This document shows, piece after piece, positions 2,572 to 58,884 of a DNA stretch of 64,000 nt. Source of the DNA: Myxosarcina sp. GI1 (GTDB lineage: Bacteria > Cyanobacteriota > Cyanobacteriia > Cyanobacteriales > Xenococcaceae); contig NZ_JRFE01000009.1 of assembly GCF_000756305.1 (NCBI RefSeq), positions 13,243-77,242 of the forward strand. The letters run 5' to 3'. The notes beneath the pieces are model-generated. The model saw only the letters and a program-made list of their open reading frames with translations, did no database searches and had not been told where the DNA came from. Within the stretch, counting starts at the first letter, position 1, and each line of letters opens with the position of its first letter. A program made the translations under genes and the position numbers.

Positions 2572-3876
2572 TTATGCAGGTTTCATTACCACAACACCAT
2601 AAGCATGGGGATCGAGGTATTTTTGTGCTGCTGCCTGTAAATCTTCTGCGGTTACGGTGCGGACGCGATCGGGATAATTTAAGGCTGGAGTCAAACTTTG
2701 CAGTTGAGAATAATAATAACCGTAAAGATTGGCGCGATCGCTCGGTCGTTCGCTGGCGAAGACAAAACGGTTGGCAACTTGGGTACGAATACGAGCAATT
2801 TCTGGTTCGGAAACACCTGCGGTACAAATTGTTTGCAAATGTTCGGCAACTGCTGTTTCTACTGCGGAAATATTTGCCGCTGGCAATCGCGCTGAGATAT
2901 AAAATACACCTTGATAGGTTTGAGTCATATTGCTAACGCCAATTTGCGAAACCAAACCTCTTTCTTCTCTTAAGTCTCTGAACAGACGCGAAACTTTACC
3001 CTGTCCTAAAATTGCCGATAGCACGTCTAAAGCATAAGTTGCTTCTAATTCCATCATGCCAGGTACGCGCCACATCATTACCAGTCGCGCCTGCTGTAAA
3101 TTTTCATCGGTGTATTCGCGACGCACTATTTCTTTAAAAGCAGGTTCTGCTGCTAAAGATCTAGAATTTTGCTGCCGTTCCTGACGATAGTTAGTTTCAA
3201 CAATATTAGTATCGGCTTTGGTTTCTGACGCGGCTTTGGCAATAATATCGATTAGCTGGGTTTCGGGTAAATTGCCTACCGCTACTACCGTCATTGACTG
3301 AGGCTGATACCAGGAAGCATGAAAATCGCGCATTTGTTGCGATCGCATGTTGGCAATTACCGATGCGGGACCCAATACGGGACGGCGATAGGGCAATGTC
3401 TCAAAACAAGTTTCCATCGAACGATAGAAAGTACGTTTGCTAGGATTATCTTCCGAACGGCGAATTTCTTCTAAAACGACTAATTTTTCACGCTCGAACG
3501 CTTCATCTTCAATACTGGGATTTAGAGCTACATCTAGCTGTAGGGGTGCTAGTTCGGCAAAATCTTTAGGAGCAGTAGTAATGTAATAGTGAGTGTAATC
3601 TTGACTGGTAGCGGCGTTGGTAACTGCCCCTCTTTCTTCAATTAAATGCTCGAACTCTCCCATTTTCAGGCTGGGAGTGCCTTTAAAAACTATATGCTCT
3701 AAAAAATGCGCCATGCCGTTAATTTCGTCAGTTTCTCTAGTCGAACCAACATTAAGCCAGACATTGAGATTTATTGCTTCGATTGGCATTTGTTCGACAA
3801 TTACAGTCAAACCATTATCTAGTTTTTCAACTGTAGGAGCGTTTAATTGCGGTTTGGTGATAAGATTGGAGGTCAT
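2572..3876 (-). CDS. M16 family zinc metallopeptidase, 434 aa
   Basis: An insulinase/processing-peptidase-type protein. The inverted zinc motif HxxEH is visible as HFLEH near residue 58, followed by the EEIRRSEDNP segment that supplies the third ligand glutamate. The C-terminal half shows the typical second M16 domain (REERGLVSQIG, then ASERPSDRANLYGYY). Length fits the roughly 430-residue single-subunit bacterial forms. There is no signal peptide, so it is probably cytoplasmic. Cyanobacteria commonly carry two M16 genes in tandem; only one is seen here. Start ATG at 3876. The adjacent gene on the same strand, tsaB, ends well upstream and is separately promoted or loosely linked. Confidence 0.9.
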   Translation of the reverse strand: MTSNLITKPQLNAPTVEKLDNGLTVIVEQMPIEAINLNVWLNVGSTRETDEINGMAHFLEHIVFKGTPSLKMGEFEHLIEERGAVTNAATSQDYTHYYITTAPKDFAELAPLQLDVALNPSIEDEAFEREKLVVLEEIRRSEDNPSKRTFYRSMETCFETLPYRRPVLGPASVIANMRSQQMRDFHASWYQPQSMTVVAVGNLPETQLIDIIAKAASETKADTNIVETNYRQERQQNSRSLAAEPAFKEIVRREYTDENLQQARLVMMWRVPGMMELEATYALDVLSAILGQGKVSRLFRDLREERGLVSQIGVSNMTQTYQGVFYISARLPAANISAVETAVAEHLQTICTAGVSEPEIARIRTQVANRFVFASERPSDRANLYGYYYSQLQSLTPALNYPDRVRTVTAEDLQAAAQKYLDPHAYGVVVMKPA

Positions 3877-7173: not shown

Positions 7174-8166
7174 ATGGCGGAAACTTTTTTCAGGCGAAGC
7201 ATTATTTTGTTTTTTAGCATCACACTAAGTATGTGGCTTACAGGCTGTGATGGAACAGAGCAAACTTCGTCAACAGCTAGCTCGAACAGTACCAGTACCA
7301 CTGATGTTGCCAGTGACTCATCAACTGATAAAAAGAAAGTTTTAACTACCTTTAGCGTTTTAGCCGATATTGCTCAAAACGTAGCAGGGGATAAGCTAAA
7401 TGTAGAGTCAATTACGCGCATCGGTGCGGAAATTCACGGCTACGAACCCACACCCAGCGACATTGTTAAAGTCCAGAATGCCGACTTAATTCTTTACAAC
7501 GGTATGGATTTGGAGCGTTGGTTCGAGCAGTTTTTAGGTAATGTAAAGGGTGTCCCTTCGGCATTATTAACAGAAGGTATCGAGCCAATCCCAATTTCTG
7601 AAGGATCTTACACTAACAAACCCAACCCTCATGCCTGGATGTCCCCTCGCAACGCGCTAGTTTACGTGGAGAACATTCGTCAAGCCTTTGTCAAACTCGA
7701 TCCCGAAAATGCCGATACTTATAATGCTAATGCCAAAGCCTACAGCGCAAAGCTCAGCACCATTGATGAAACGCTAGAGGCAGATTTAAGTAAAGTACCC
7801 GAACAGCAAAGGTATTTAGTAAGTTGCGAAGGTGCGTTTTCTTATCTGGCTCGCGACTATGATATGGAAGAAATCTATATCTGGCCTATAAACGCCGAAC
7901 AGCAGTATACTCCCAAGCAGATACAAAGGGTAATTGAGGAAGTAAAAACTAATAATATACCCACGATTTTTTGTGAAACTACCGTCAGCGATGAAGGACA
8001 AAAACAAGTGGCTCAAACAACGGGGGCAAATTTTGGGGGCAACCTCTATGTAGATTCCCTTTCTAATAAAGAAGGAGCCGTTCCCACCTTTATTGATTTG
8101 CTCGAATACGATGCCCGTACCATTACCAATGGCTTATTAGCGGGTAGTAACACTGGCAAGCAGTAA
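7174..8166 (+). CDS. mntC: MntC, manganese ABC transporter substrate-binding lipoprotein
   Basis: 330 residues. The N-terminus is a hydrophobic signal with lipobox LTGC (lipidated Cys25), followed by a Ser/Thr-rich tether. The metal ligands of the Mn-type family are visible as His88 (EIHGYE), His153 (NPHAW), Glu219 (SCEGAF) and Asp294. Cys218 and Cys267 correspond to the disulfide known in Synechocystis MntC, and the Glu next to the Cys separates it from Zn-type ZnuA, which has His there. It binds Mn(II) in the periplasm and delivers it to the permease. It is the first gene of an operon with mntB; the ATPase gene between them appears deleted. Confidence 0.92.
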   Translation: MAETFFRRSIILFFSITLSMWLTGCDGTEQTSSTASSNSTSTTDVASDSSTDKKKVLTTFSVLADIAQNVAGDKLNVESITRIGAEIHGYEPTPSDIVKVQNADLILYNGMDLERWFEQFLGNVKGVPSALLTEGIEPIPISEGSYTNKPNPHAWMSPRNALVYVENIRQAFVKLDPENADTYNANAKAYSAKLSTIDETLEADLSKVPEQQRYLVSCEGAFSYLARDYDMEEIYIWPINAEQQYTPKQIQRVIEEVKTNNIPTIFCETTVSDEGQKQVAQTTGANFGGNLYVDSLSNKEGAVPTFIDLLEYDARTITNGLLAGSNTGKQ

Positions 8167-8173
8167 TAAAATC

Positions 8174-8260
8174 ATGTCAACAGTAACTCCAAACCTCGAT
8201 ATCAGCATGACTTTCGACGGTTATCCTTTGAATATATACCAAAACTCTGAGGTAGAGTAA
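8174..8260 (+). pseudogene. 28-codon ORF, likely in-frame remnant of the ATPase gene mntA
   Basis: A short ORF starts 7 bases after the mntC stop and ends TAATG, overlapping the mntB start by one base. This is where the ATPase gene mntA normally lies in the cyanobacterial mntCAB operon, and it keeps the coupling of both junctions. The peptide begins MSTVTPNLDIS and ends MTFDGYPLNIYQNSEVE. From memory these resemble the N-terminal and C-terminal ends of MntA, with no Walker A, signature or Walker B motif between. The simplest reading is an in-frame internal deletion. It could also be a real small protein or an assembly collapse. Confidence 0.5.
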
Positions 8261-9159
8261 TGAGCGATATAATGGTTGCCATTCCCGTTATCGACTGGCT
8301 GATCGAACCCTTACAGTATCCTTTTTTAGTTCGGGCAATCTGGGTTAGTGCCTTTGTGGGTTTAGTCTGTGCGGTACTTTCTTGCTATATTACTCTTAAA
8401 GGTTGGTCGCTTATGGGAGATGCGGTTTCTCATGCGGTCGTACCAGGGGTAGTAGTAGCCTATGCTCTAAACATTCCCTTTGCTATTGGAGCCTTTCTAT
8501 TTGGGTTTGGGGCAACTGTTGCCATTGGCTACATCAAATCAAAAACTCGTCTCAAAGAAGATGCAGTTATTGGCGTAGTTTTTACGGGCTTTTTTGCCTT
8601 CGGTTTGGTGTTGATTACCAAAATTCCCAGCAACATCGACCTGTTTCACATTCTATTTGGTAATGTGCTGGGTATTTCTCAAGAAGATATCATTCAAACT
8701 TTAATTGCAGGTATTATCACTCTGGTAATAATTACGATCCGCCGCAAAGACCTGTTGCTATTCTGTTTCGACCCCAACCACGCCAAAGCCATTGGTCTAA
8801 ACACCCAGCTTATGTTTTATACTTTGCTTTCGGTACTGGCTTTAACCATTGTCACCGCTCTGCAAACCGCAGGTATTATTCTGGTTATTGCCATGTTAGT
8901 AACCCCTGGCTCGACGGCATATTTACTAACAGACCGCTTTGACCGTATGCTATGGATTTCAATTGCTACCAGCGTCTTCTCTTGCGTAGGTGGAACTTAC
9001 CTTAGCTACCATTTTGACGTATCTACAGGTGGCGCGATCGTGGTACTGTTAACGGTATTGTTTATGGTTGCAATGATATTTGCTCCCAAGTACGGTATTT
9101 TGGCTCAGAATTCCCATCGTCATCAACCAGTTTTAGATGGAATGCAGGATAAAGGTTAA
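8260..9159 (+). CDS. mntB: MntB, manganese ABC transporter permease
   Basis: 299 residues, with seven to nine hydrophobic segments and the ABC-3 family pattern: LVRAIWVSAFVGLVCAVLSC, then GWSLMGDAVSHAVVPGVVVAY (the conserved loop that contacts the ATPase) and later FDPNHAKAIGL and VTALQTAGIILVIAMLVTPG. It forms the membrane channel for Mn(II) delivered by MntC. The start overlaps the stop of the mntA remnant (TAATG). Without a neighbouring ATPase it would need one supplied elsewhere, or the operon is non-functional. Confidence 0.9.
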   Translation: MSDIMVAIPVIDWLIEPLQYPFLVRAIWVSAFVGLVCAVLSCYITLKGWSLMGDAVSHAVVPGVVVAYALNIPFAIGAFLFGFGATVAIGYIKSKTRLKEDAVIGVVFTGFFAFGLVLITKIPSNIDLFHILFGNVLGISQEDIIQTLIAGIITLVIITIRRKDLLLFCFDPNHAKAIGLNTQLMFYTLLSVLALTIVTALQTAGIILVIAMLVTPGSTAYLLTDRFDRMLWISIATSVFSCVGGTYLSYHFDVSTGGAIVVLLTVLFMVAMIFAPKYGILAQNSHRHQPVLDGMQDKG

Positions 9160-54637: not shown

Positions 54638-54655
54638 GTGCATAAGTTGATGCAC
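54638..54655. promoter_or_regulatory. Palindrome upstream of copy 1
   Basis: GTGCATAAGTTGATGCAC, with 6-bp arms, ends 63 bases before the ATG. It could be an operator or the base of a leader hairpin. Confidence 0.4.
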
Positions 54656-54718
54656 CGAGACATACAAGTAAACAAGAAACAAAATTCACTTAAATCAAGC
54701 AAAATTGGAGACAAAATC

Positions 54719-55012
54719 ATGAAAAACTCTGTAATTGGTCTACTGGCTCTTTCTACCATCGGTTTAATGTCTGTACCTGCTTTAGCAGATGAGGCAAACG
54801 TGCAAACTTCGGAACAGGTAACTACACAAATTGGCGATCGCAATAGCTCAACTCAAAGAACTAGCCAATCTAACTACAGCAACCGTCGCGGACGCAGTGA
54901 AAACGTTGGCAATGCACAAGATAGTTTTCAAGATTCCTTACAAGAAGGAAATGACAACCGAAGCGAGCAAACTGTCAATCAGCGTAACTCTAGCCGCCGC
55001 AGTCGTCGTTAA
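54719..55012 (+). CDS. Exported Gln/Asn/Ser-rich repeat protein, copy 1
   Basis: 97 residues from the ATG at 54719, preceded by TTGGAG. A signal peptide ends at ALA (cleavage near residue 23). The mature part holds two exact copies of Q-x3-Q-x5-G-x2-N-x3-Q-x3-Q (Q29 to Q50 and Q67 to Q88) separated by an Arg-rich stretch (NRRGRSEN), and a basic tail (RRSRR). The pattern predicts strand-turn-strand units. It resembles curlin repeats in unit length but not in spacing. No named family recognised. Most likely secreted and structural. Confidence 0.7.
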   Translation: MKNSVIGLLALSTIGLMSVPALADEANVQTSEQVTTQIGDRNSSTQRTSQSNYSNRRGRSENVGNAQDSFQDSLQEGNDNRSEQTVNQRNSSRRSRR

Positions 55013-55066
55013 ACATTGCCTTCTAAGAGTATTTCGGCACTTTTTCAGTCAATGTCCGCTGTAAAA

Positions 55067-55084
55067 GTGCATAAATTTATGCAC
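55067..55084. promoter_or_regulatory. Perfect palindrome upstream of copy 2
   Basis: GTGCATAAATTTATGCAC is a perfect 18-bp palindrome at the same place as in copy 1 (64 bases before the ATG). Its conservation in both copies hints at an operator. Confidence 0.45.
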
Positions 55085-55148
55085 CGAGACATACAAGTAA
55101 ACAAGAAACAAAAATACAACTCAATCAAACAAAATTGGAGACAAAATC

Positions 55149-55442
55149 ATGAAAAACTCTGTAATTGGTCTACTGGCTCTTTCTACCATCGGTTTAATGT
55201 CTGTACCTGCTTTAGCAGATGAGGCAAACGTGCAAACTTCGGAACAGGTAACTACACAAATTGGCGATCGCAATAGCTCAACTCAAAGAACCAGTCAATC
55301 TAACTACAGCAACCGTCGCGGACGCAGTGAAAACGTTGGCAATGCACAAGATAGTTTTCAAGATTCCTTACAAGAAGGAAATGACAACCAAAGCGAGCAA
55401 ACTGTCAATCAGCGTAACTCTAGCCGCCGCAGTCGTCGTTAA
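55149..55442 (+). CDS. Exported Gln/Asn/Ser-rich repeat protein, copy 2
   Basis: 97 residues, identical to the upstream copy except Gln at residue 81. It has the same signal peptide and the same two Q-x3-Q-x5-G-x2-N-x3-Q-x3-Q motifs. It is followed at 42 bases by the next small exported protein, so the genes may form one operon. Confidence 0.7.
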   Translation: MKNSVIGLLALSTIGLMSVPALADEANVQTSEQVTTQIGDRNSSTQRTSQSNYSNRRGRSENVGNAQDSFQDSLQEGNDNQSEQTVNQRNSSRRSRR

Positions 55443-55484
55443 CTTAATTTCCCTAACTAATCAAAACTATGTGGGGTACGAGAA

Positions 55485-55844
55485 ATGAAACTAAAAAAAC
55501 TGGTGTTTCCAATCGCTATTGCAATTACTTGTTCGTCAGGGATCGTTTTAGCCGAACAGATAATAATGGAAGCAGGAGAGGTGACAATTGTTAAAGAAGA
55601 GAACGGTAGCATTGAAGTCGATACGGGAAATACTCAAATGCGAGTTCCACAGCGATCTATAGAGCATGAAATAGAAGATGATTACTCTATTAACAATAGT
55701 GCAATTAATTCATCAACTTCAAGGCAAATAAATCATGATTTTAGCTGTAGAACGAGAACCGTTCAATCAACTCACCAGAGCAACAATAGTGGGTCGAAAC
55801 AAACAGTAACCCAAACAAATATATCTACTAATATTTGCCAATAA
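55485..55844 (+). CDS. Small exported protein of the repeat cluster
   Basis: 119 residues with a signal peptide (LVFPIAIAITCSSGIVLA). The mature part has an acidic centre and a Ser/Asn/Gln-rich C-terminus with a shortened form of the cluster motif: Q94-x3-Q98 and Q106-x3-Q110. Two cysteines (FSCRT, NICQ) may bond. It is 19 bases before the next ORF's ATG and is probably co-transcribed. Confidence 0.6.
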   Translation: MKLKKLVFPIAIAITCSSGIVLAEQIIMEAGEVTIVKEENGSIEVDTGNTQMRVPQRSIEHEIEDDYSINNSAINSSTSRQINHDFSCRTRTVQSTHQSNNSGSKQTVTQTNISTNICQ

Positions 55845-55863
55845 TAAACTCAGGAGAACATAG

Positions 55864-56235
55864 ATGCAAATCATTCGCTTAAACGCAGGTTTATTGACAA
55901 TTGCCAGTTTACTTGCCATACCATTGTCAATAGCAGAATCAGCTTCCGCACAGTGCGTACAGTCTCATACAGGGATTCAGTTAAATATAGGAAAAACACC
56001 AGCAGAGCAAACCCATAATACTCAATTTGAAAAAGAAGAAAGCTGTACGGGTAATGTAAGTTCGAGCAATTCTACTCAAGTTAATGTAGGCGGTAAAAAC
56101 CCACGCCAGCATCAAGAAGTCCGTCATGAAACTCGTCGGGGTCGCAGCAATTCTTCTAGAGTTAATGGTCCTACAGTAAGCGTCGATGCGGTAGCTCCTG
56201 TTAACGTACAGACTCCTAAAAATTTCCCTTACTAA
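55864..56235 (+). CDS. Small exported Asn/Ser/Gln-rich protein
   Basis: 123 residues from an ATG preceded by AGGAGAAC. A signal peptide ends at ASA (about residue 29). The mature part is rich in Thr, Asn and Gln with short alternating strands (STQVNVGG, TGIQLNIGK), then an Arg-rich stretch. The exact motif of its neighbours is not present, but composition and context tie it to the cluster. Two cysteines (QCVQ, SCTG). Confidence 0.6.
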   Translation: MQIIRLNAGLLTIASLLAIPLSIAESASAQCVQSHTGIQLNIGKTPAEQTHNTQFEKEESCTGNVSSSNSTQVNVGGKNPRQHQEVRHETRRGRSNSSRVNGPTVSVDAVAPVNVQTPKNFPY

Positions 56236-56247
56236 AAGAAAATAGAA

Positions 56248-56276
56248 GGTGCTTGCATGTAAATAAAGTTTTACCA
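56248..56276. repeat. Direct repeat, left copy (right copy at 58256)
   Basis: GGTGCTTGCATGTAAATAA followed by TTACCA, almost repeated at 58256-58281. The pair brackets the two genes at 56381 and 57021. Confidence 0.55.
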
Positions 56277-56278
56277 AA

Positions 56279-56334
56279 AACGAGTAATGAGTAACTAACA
56301 ATAGATTATTTATTTTACTCATTGCTCGTCAAAA
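56279..56334. repeat. Heptamer-like complementary repeat
   Basis: CGAGTAATGAGTAA and TTACTCATTGCTCG form complementary arms around a short AT-rich loop, part of the heptamer repeat group or a hairpin in the operon. Confidence 0.5.
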
Positions 56335-56380
56335 AGATAGTTTCAAATTTGTAGCAGCAACAAATTTAAAAGGTATAGCT

Positions 56381-56944
56381 ATGAATAAAAAATACTTTTT
56401 ATTTTTTTCTTGTTTAGCTATTTTCTGTGTAGCTACTGGTAGTATAATTTTTGCTAGAAATAGCCAATCATCGATCGCAGCGAGTCAAGTAAACTTAGAT
56501 AGATCTTTTAGTAGTACATATAGGGCAGAAAGAGTTATTAACTCTAGAAAAAGACATCGAGAAGGCAGTGATACCGAGCAAAGAATTAGCTCTAAAAAAT
56601 ATTCATCTAAATCTTATCAAGAGCAACAAACAGCAGTCGATATAAGCTTATTAGATTTAAATGAAGCAAATTTACTCAGCATCAGTGCTTCACAACCAGA
56701 AACTCAATTAACAGCCACAGTATCCCTTAATGGTCAACACATAAAAAGTCTTACGAATGACGACAATGTACTCGATCTGTCTCCTTATTTGACTTTAGGC
56801 AAACAAGTAGTTTCAATTTCAGGTAATTATACCCCTGCTAATGCTTTCGTAAAAATTGAATTTCAAGGACAAACAACACATATTAGTCAGGAAACTCAAG
56901 GTAGTGGCAAACTACAACAACAATTGATTTTTCATGTCAAATAA
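56381..56944 (+). CDS. Anchored or exported protein with C-terminal beta-sandwich-like domain
   Basis: 187 residues with a hydrophobic N-terminal segment (FLFFSCLAIFCVATGSIIFA), a basic Ser/Arg/Gln-rich linker (about residues 40-85) and a C-terminal domain of short strands (TVSLNGQHIKSL, VLDLSPYLTLGKQVVSISG, FVKIEFQG, QLIFHVK). It may be a periplasmic binding or assembly factor for the neighbours; this is inference. Confidence 0.6.
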   Translation: MNKKYFLFFSCLAIFCVATGSIIFARNSQSSIAASQVNLDRSFSSTYRAERVINSRKRHREGSDTEQRISSKKYSSKSYQEQQTAVDISLLDLNEANLLSISASQPETQLTATVSLNGQHIKSLTNDDNVLDLSPYLTLGKQVVSISGNYTPANAFVKIEFQGQTTHISQETQGSGKLQQQLIFHVK

Positions 56945-57020
56945 TTAAAGTTTTATGGGATATACGGAACTCATAATCGGATAAATTCGTTAACTAGAGA
57001 TTAAATAAAGGAGTTAATTT

Positions 57021-58178
57021 ATGTCGCTCTCTGAAAATGCAATACCGCAACTGGCAATCCAAGAAGTTGATATTCCTGAAGGTGATAATAATTATATCGA
57101 ACAGGTCATCAATCAAGATATTATTGTCCATGTCTTAGAAATCCCCGATTTAGAAAATGTAACAGGAATTCAGAGTTTTATACAAACAGATAGCGATATT
57201 GGAACTGATAATCAGGTCTCTCAAAACATTCATCAAACTACAGTAGATTTTCCTTTATTTCCTTCTAACTATTCTCCATCAAACTCTAAATCTATTGATA
57301 GTAATAATTTTAGCTGGAATTTTGATGAATTTATTAATAATGATGATGTTTTAGATACTGTTCAATTTATTAATCAGCAAGCATTTGTCGAAGGCAACTG
57401 TAATAGTTTGAATTTTTATTCCGAACAAAGAATTTACGATCTATCTGGATATGGGGAGTTCGGGTTCGACCCAGATTATGTGTTTGATGAAAGTATAGCT
57501 TTTGATGATTTTCTGGAAAATTTTGCTAGTAGTAGTTTGCTGGATTCTACTCAATTTGGTGTCCAGGATGTTAGAGTTTTTGGCGATGACAATAAAATTG
57601 TTCAAGAATTAGACCAAAGTATTGATACATTTATTATCCTGGATGAAGATTATAGTCAGGAATTGACCGAAGAATCAGATTATTTGTCTCCCGTTCAATT
57701 TGCCATTCAAGAAAGCTTTTTAGACAATGACAATAATATTATAGAGCAAAATATCAGTCAGAATATTCAATTTGACTTTGGCTTTAGCGATCTAATAAGC
57801 GATAAACTGACAGGAATAGAGGGAGCAGAATTAGCCAATCCTGAGTTCGGCATCGACGACTTTGTTTTACCAATATTAGATAATAATATCGAAGGTTCTG
57901 AACTATTTGAAAATCATGAAGTATTAGCCAATCAGAAAAACCAGCAAACGGCTAATGTATTTGGCAATAATAATAAGGATGCTAAAAACAATAATCAAAT
58001 ACTAATTGCCAGCGAAGATGAAACTAGAGAATTAGTATTGAAAAATCCCGATAATATTTTTGAAGCAGGTTTAGCTGATTATTTTGACGGACAAAAGGAT
58101 TTTATATTTAACGATAGCGATAACAATGCGCTTTCGGATTGGCTATTTGATACAACTAACTCTGCGCTCAGTATATAA
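57021..58178 (+). CDS. 385-aa acidic protein with five Gln/Asn repeats of the cluster motif
   Basis: No Sec signal is seen. Five repeats of Q-x3-Q-x5/6-G-x2-N-x3-Q-x3-Q start at Q10, Q51, Q115, Q178 and Q226; the third has Phe for one Gln and the fifth has Asn for Gly. They are separated by Asp/Glu/Phe-rich linkers (DDFLENFASS). The C-terminus is acidic and Asn-rich. A strong AAGGAG precedes the ATG. It is the largest member of the cluster; the absence of a signal suggests another export route or a cytoplasmic partner. Unknown family. Confidence 0.65.
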   Translation: MSLSENAIPQLAIQEVDIPEGDNNYIEQVINQDIIVHVLEIPDLENVTGIQSFIQTDSDIGTDNQVSQNIHQTTVDFPLFPSNYSPSNSKSIDSNNFSWNFDEFINNDDVLDTVQFINQQAFVEGNCNSLNFYSEQRIYDLSGYGEFGFDPDYVFDESIAFDDFLENFASSSLLDSTQFGVQDVRVFGDDNKIVQELDQSIDTFIILDEDYSQELTEESDYLSPVQFAIQESFLDNDNNIIEQNISQNIQFDFGFSDLISDKLTGIEGAELANPEFGIDDFVLPILDNNIEGSELFENHEVLANQKNQQTANVFGNNNKDAKNNNQILIASEDETRELVLKNPDNIFEAGLADYFDGQKDFIFNDSDNNALSDWLFDTTNSALSI

Positions 58179-58662: not shown

Positions 58663-58884
58663 ATGTCTAATATTGCTATCTCAGACCTCCCAATCGAATT
58701 TGCCGAACTGAACAAACTAGAAGCCAACAGTATTACTGGAGGTTGTGAAATAAAATACAGGTTGAATGGAAAAGTAAAAAGTATTACAAACTGCTCGGCA
58801 GAACAAATTAAAGCTGTTACAAACCCAAAGCAAAATGCAGAGCAAGAGAACTTTCAATTAGCTAGTTTTCAATTGGCTAGTTGA
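58663..58884 (+). CDS. Double-glycine leader peptide, bacteriocin/RiPP-like precursor
   Basis: 73 residues from an ATG preceded by AAGGAG. The N-terminal leader ends in Gly26-Gly27 with the canonical pattern Leu16 (-12), Glu20 (-8), Ile24 (-4), so a C39-peptidase ABC exporter would cleave after residue 27. The core begins with Cys28, has a second Cys44 and ends in a doubled FQLAS. No exporter, cyclase or lanthipeptide synthase is in the window. It may be a bacteriocin, a signalling peptide or a matrix component of the cluster upstream. Confidence 0.65.
   Translation: MSNIAISDLPIEFAELNKLEANSITGGCEIKYRLNGKVKSITNCSAEQIKAVTNPKQNAEQENFQLASFQLAS

Follow-up and report, generated by a model that had tools for sequence, protein, structure and literature searches.

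Gene content of the locus

A cluster of genes at positions 54719-58178 of a 64,000-nucleotide stretch of the cyanobacterium Myxosarcina sp. GI1 (contig NZ_JRFE01000009.1; the whole stretch is referred to as the window) was analysed computationally, following a preliminary description in which the encoded Gln/Asn-rich proteins had been proposed to share a new repeat and to build an extracellular fibre or matrix. The genes, named A1, A2, B, C, F and E in order, are listed in Table 1 together with the repeats, which we call Gln-ladder units. A1 and A2 share 97% identity across a 300-bp stretch that takes in upstream DNA, indicating a recent tandem duplication that had previously been overlooked, and the two are therefore counted as one observation and not as independent evidence. 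The three small proteins between the twins and E had been described as carrying signal peptides or anchors, and inspection of the sequences agreed with this. The broader suggestion that motif and export go together across the cluster held for A1 and A2, but a motif scan of the cluster proteins found no Gln-ladder motif in B, C or F, and E was without a signal peptide.

C is the most conserved member of the cluster. When the cluster proteins and alignments of their homologues were scanned against Pfam and NCBIfam, no family scored above its cut-off for A, B, C, F or D (a single-unit protein encoded in some related loci), and the E protein of Myxosarcina sp. GI1 contained no recognised domain.

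Table 1. Genes and Gln-ladder units of the cluster (positions in the window; anchors as defined in the text)
Feature	Position	Strand	Length (aa)	Description	Unit sequence	Anchors
A1	54719-55012	+	97	Sec-type precursor; Arg-rich linker and tail		
A1 units (n = 2)	54803-54868, 54917-54982	+		Gln-ladder units		6/6 each
A2	55149-55442	+		Tandem copy of A1, 99% protein identity		
A2 units (n = 2)	55233-55298, 55347-55412	+		Gln-ladder units		6/6 each
B	55485-55844	+	119	Exported (by inspection); kept between A and C		
C	55864-56235	+	123	Exported (by inspection); two invariant Cys (alignment)		
F	56381-56944	+	187	N-terminal signal or anchor (by inspection)		
E	57021-58178	+	385	Very acidic, net charge -65; no signal peptide		
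E unit 1	57051-57116	+			LAIQEVDIPEGDNNYIEQVINQ	4/6
E unit 2	57171-57236	+			QSFIQTDSDIGTDNQVSQNIHQ	6/6
E unit 3	57363-57428	+			QFINQQAFVEGNCNSLNFYSEQ	5/6
E unit 4	57552-57617	+			QFGVQDVRVFGDDNKIVQELDQ	6/6
E unit 5	57696-57761	+			QFAIQESFLDNDNNIIEQNISQ	5/6
E unit 6	57933-57998	+			QKNQQTANVFGNNNKDAKNNNQ	5/6

The 22-residue Gln-ladder unit

With the turn Gly numbered 0, the unit is defined by the anchors Q-10, Q-6, G0, N+3, Q+7 and Q+11. The complete pattern, Q-x3-Q-x5-G-x2-N-x3-Q-x3-Q, was found twice in each of A1 and A2, exactly as had been reported for both halves of the 97-residue twins. In E, where five recurrences had been noted, six units are now recognised, most of them degenerate (all six anchors are present in two units, five in three units and four in the remaining one) and lying 40 to 79 residues apart. 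Composition does not account for these numbers: when each protein was shuffled 5,000 times, sites with at least five of the six anchors appeared at a mean of 0.003-0.004, and the observed count was reached by none of the shuffled versions. A further Gln at -2, which had escaped the preliminary description, gives the A proteins of Myxosarcina sp. GI1 the turn sequence Q-x-G-x2-N, while most homologues have Val or Ile at this position.

The homologues provide independent evidence for the motif beyond A1 and A2. At a threshold of five anchors the unit was present in 101 proteins among 1634 distinct open reading frames (ORFs) from 119 loci, and these proteins, as far as inspected, were all small exported or E-type proteins. 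At this same threshold the homologues together yielded 170 distinct units, or 113 after removal of near-duplicates, with Gln at -2 in 25 of the latter. The unit is common to A, D and E.

Conservation and distribution of the cluster

Homologues were found far outside the strain, with A matched in 28 of 100 related genomes (25 at E <= 1e-3) and E in nine. The first iteration of the hidden Markov model pooled A, C, D and E through a shared low-complexity pattern, and the counts that follow come from separate family models. The same gene neighbourhood, which had been put forward as a check, was recovered in 24 organism-named loci gathered with the C profile (Pleurocapsa, Hyella, Hydrococcus, Waterburya, Xenococcaceae, Nostoc, Fortiea, Argonema, Aphanothece, Cyanosarcina and one Leptolyngbyaceae genome): A lies upstream of C in all 24, and the order A-B-C is kept in 22. 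As extras, F is encoded in eight of these loci, D in three and E in one. E adjoins the cluster in Myxosarcina sp. GI1, in locus L051 and, from the C search, in L087 and L088. Within the up to 10 kb searched on each side, A-B-C had no other conserved neighbours, whether for secretion, for immunity or with an enzymatic role.

Across 386 cyanobacterial genomes, C was detected in 22 (21 of 143 genera) and A in 18, and 17 of the 18 A-positive genomes also carry C (p = 2.5e-24). Ratios of nonsynonymous to synonymous substitution of 0.09-0.37 for A, B, C and E indicate purifying selection. No Pfam or NCBIfam family covers the cluster, and literature searches found no description of the family. The results demonstrate that A-B-C is a conserved and undescribed cyanobacterial gene set, which is scattered across cyanobacteria but travels together. 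One of the 24 named loci, the A-B-C-F locus L044, lies on a contig labelled Candidatus Gracilibacteria, which is probably a mis-binned cyanobacterial piece.

Export signals and E-type variants

By inspection, the N-termini of A, B, C and D are hydrophobic and mostly followed by sites of the A-x-A type, and the tails of the A proteins are rich in Arg, with a median net charge of +5. The E-type proteins of L037 and L051 were likewise judged to possess a signal peptide, a C-terminal hydrophobic segment and a basic tail, and no PEP-CTERM model matched. The E-type protein of L034 carries a Calx-beta domain. In L035 (1489-3241) the E-type protein stops and an RTX calcium-binding stretch follows just downstream in another frame, so either the record contains a frameshift or the gene is split. 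The tails, the Calx-beta domain and the RTX stretch seen in these relatives suggest that E could plausibly be a partner at the surface or one secreted by a type I system, and the Myxosarcina sp. GI1 protein may thus also be exported, although it is without a signal peptide. The Arg-rich tails of A might attach to E, which is acidic, or to anionic polymers of the sheath.

A strand-turn-strand structure

The distribution of Cys residues provides an independent test of the unit's structure. Among the 170 distinct units, 16 have Cys paired at -4/+5, three have a pair at -8/+9 and two have a lone Cys. In the non-redundant set, 10 of the 12 Cys-bearing units show one of these two pairings, compared with at most three in 100,000 random scatters, a figure that serves as a guide only, since the scatter ignores shared ancestry. 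Both pairings follow a single register in which position n faces position 1-n, as in two strands meeting at a tight turn, and they are separate inventions of this one register. The two sides of the unit also differ in character. Positions -8, -4, -2, +5 and +9, on the Gln side, are charged in 1.6% of cases and small or beta-branched in 89%, while 26% of residues on the opposite side are charged.

An AlphaFold2 (AF2) model of mature A (A2, with 29 homologues) contains strands at residues 2-15, 20-34, 40-53 and 58-72, with a mean predicted local distance difference test score (pLDDT) of 71. The turns fall on both G-x2-N sites, and the best ten-residue blocks reach pLDDT values of 84 and 83, so that A is predicted to form strands and not to be disordered. 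Cys pairs, side alternation and the A model all agree that the 22-residue unit is a structural unit, and the sequence pattern, the Cys covariation and the model are consistent with two strands flanking a G-x2-N turn, as had been anticipated. Searches of PDB sequences with the A and C profiles returned chance matches only.

A possible extracellular fibre or matrix

We favour the interpretation, to which we assign a probability of roughly 55%, that the gene cluster forms an operon through which cyanobacteria make an extracellular fibre or matrix from a new beta-arch repeat. A would be exported via Sec, and its two units would each contribute a rung to a flat beta-arch solenoid, the inside of which would be filled by the Gln/Asn ladders together with small or hydrophobic side chains. 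Monomers could then join end to end in the manner of curli or HET-s amyloid, with the Arg-rich linker and tail staying outside, where they could bind acidic sheath polysaccharide. D, with one unit, and E, with up to six, may supply extra rungs that start the fibre, cap it or hold it at the cell surface, and B and C are putative assembly partners. The interpretation starts from the unit, its register, and the conservation, linkage and selection of the genes, and from these we infer the stacking, a site outside the outer membrane, and roles for B, C, D, E and F.

Several points weigh against this interpretation. The fibre idea draws on strand prediction and covariation, and the Cys pairs suit a flat hairpin equally well as an arch. 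The A model was read for its strands and turns, so that the stacking of its two units is a suggestion going beyond it. The AF2 model of E, built from two sequences, has a pLDDT of 38 and is not relied on, even though its local maxima and strands sit on the units. Foldseek returned seven PDB matches to the A model, of which five are amyloid fibrils (FapC and CsgA twice each, and HELLF); none of the matches is significant (E >= 1.1), and they add colour rather than evidence. A VIA structure search was uninformative, giving a SufBCD chain as its best match at Z 3.0. With the E model and the Foldseek scores as they are, the stacking of units into a fibre, as first proposed, was not corroborated. 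Moreover, the conserved neighbours of A-B-C include no outer-membrane exporter, and the functions proposed for B, C and F are guesses.

A different explanation, which we consider unlikely though it deserves serious attention, is that A is a soluble beta-solenoid, periplasmic or secreted, that binds polysaccharide or cell wall and does not polymerise, the Gln ladders forming a domain core that is disulfide-locked in some species. The regular strand pattern of the A model would suit such a binder, as would the weak VIA match, and the in-unit Cys pairs fit a stable monomer just as the basic tails fit the binding of anionic polymers. However, two arches in 74 residues leave the beta edges open, and open beta edges normally invite polymerisation. 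The reuse of the unit in D and E is also suited to co-assembly.

Relation to curli

The Gln-ladder unit resembles the curli repeat in being a 22-residue, Gln/Asn-rich strand-turn-strand element with a G-x2-N turn, found in small exported proteins encoded by an operon with at least two subunit genes. The anchors are nevertheless placed differently. E. coli K-12 CsgA and CsgB have S-8, Q-2, G0, N+3 and Q+9, and neither contains a unit with four Gln-ladder anchors, which upholds the earlier remark that the spacing differs from that of curlin; A-type units have Gln at -10, -6, +7 and +11 where curlin has it at -2 and +9. Conversely, the curlin repeat S-x5-Q-x4-N-x5-Q was approached (four of five curlin anchors) in 17 of 118 Gln-ladder units, the others scoring below this. 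A differs further in its two units per protein and in possessing an Arg-rich linker and tail. The ladder residues share the same parity in both repeats, even before the turn and odd after it, and both would therefore place Gln/Asn inside.

A divergent branch of curli, with CsgA/CsgB homologues that have drifted past the reach of profiles and are exported by a CsgG-family pore, could explain the equal unit length, the common turn and the units with Gln at -2. It appears improbable, since PF07012 matched neither in the Myxosarcina sp. GI1 genome nor in any of 292 cyanobacteria, while the E. coli control was positive, and since profile comparison and hhalign aligned the G-x2-N turn only, so that homology to curlin was rejected. 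The Myxosarcina sp. GI1 genome does encode a single CsgG-family protein (PF03783, E 1.1e-42; L091:6864-7886, contig C24), located far from the cluster and without an evident lipobox. Among the 100 relatives, CsgG occurs in 20 and A (E <= 1e-3) in 25, and the two overlap in the Myxosarcina sp. GI1 genome only; CsgG is thus present in one of the 25 A-positive genomes versus 19 of the 75 others. As the gene lies elsewhere in the genome and does not share the distribution of A, CsgG was rejected as the exporter of A, a result that also counts against the fibre interpretation. No CsgE/CsgF-like cluster was noticed among the conserved neighbours of A-B-C, where no dedicated search was made. The Gln-ladder system is curlin-like at the level of the unit, yet it stands outside the curli system.

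In a locus from another cyanobacterial order, two proteins encoded on the reverse strand next to a C gene (L077:2063-2569 and 2745-3284) contain Gln-rich repeats with the pattern G-x-G-N-x-A-x-Q, such as QNIVQNGSGNVAVQ. These look intermediate between the Gln-ladder unit and curlin, which would speak for the divergent branch, and had no Pfam match.

Comparison with other amyloids and secreted peptides

The HET-s domain consists of two pseudo-repeats of about 21 residues, each of which makes up one rung and has a conserved Gly in its arch (PMC7889193). By length, the layout of HET-s and HELLF (HRAM) is similar to that of A, with its two 22-residue units and 16-residue linker. HET-s and HELLF are, however, fungal and lie behind a HeLo or HELL domain that triggers cell death, whereas A is an exported stand-alone protein. 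No HeLo, HELL or BELL effector domain and no NOD-like receptor (NLR) partner was present in the conserved A-B-C neighbour set, and the Foldseek match to HELLF was not significant (E 4.5). Similarly, the Fap amyloid of Pseudomonas (FapC) is extracellular, functional and composed of repeated Gln/Asn-rich units, and FapC was the top Foldseek match to A, again not significantly (E 1.1). Unlike in Fap, no operon partners of that system were noticed beside A-B-C, though no profile search was aimed at them.

Within the cyanobacteria, the known amyloids are those formed by EbfG1-3 of Synechococcus elongatus, and the EbfG1-4 operon is needed for biofilm (PMC9981879). EbfG1-4 share with A the character of small secreted proteins from a single operon, but their hotspot motif is A-Phi-N-I-Pi and not a Gln ladder, and they leave the cell through a dedicated peptidase-transporter, in contrast to the Sec-type signal peptide of A. 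The signal peptides of the A precursors end in A-x-A by inspection and do not resemble a double-glycine leader. Leaders of the double-glycine type are those of EbfG.

It is possible, if somewhat short of an even chance, that the cluster represents a self-contained cyanobacterial fibre system, with its own beta-arch repeat, B and C as conserved accessories, E proteins (those with a signal peptide and membrane tail, or with Calx-beta) as surface anchors, and an origin separate from those of curli, Fap and EbfG. To our knowledge, the protein scaffold of the tough coats of sheath- and colony-forming cyanobacteria is largely unknown, and classical curlin is apparently absent from the phylum. The operon offers directly testable coat candidates, being conserved and having a defined repeat, variants in which nature has paired the Cys residues, and an A-B-C core that is small. 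A second, independent beta-arch repeat, if confirmed, would help to distinguish the requirements of an amyloid-type repeat (turn, ladders and alternation) from accidents of curlin ancestry.

A toxin, bacteriocin or signalling-peptide system with the Gln-rich proteins as cargo is highly improbable: a short ORF downstream of E (58663-58884) weakly resembles putative ATP-grasp target precursors of ribosomally synthesised and post-translationally modified peptides (RiPPs; NCBIfam TIGR04497, E 0.0018), but this match is below the curated cut-off, the precursor is not kept with the operon in the clustered loci, and A-B-C has no immunity gene, transporter or peptidase among its conserved neighbours.

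Upstream regions

The palindrome GTGCAT-N6-ATGCAC occurs at 54639-54656 and 55068-55085, approximately 65-80 bp 5' of A1 and A2, and is possibly an operator. As a conserved operator it was rejected, since none of the 24 other loci has it upstream of A. RNA folding of the leader was unexceptional (z -1.7). In four Nostoc-type loci (L059-L062, around 8020-8630), a gene recognised by eye as encoding a Crp/Fnr-like protein, a possible regulator, lies directly 5' of an A-B-C-A' arrangement.

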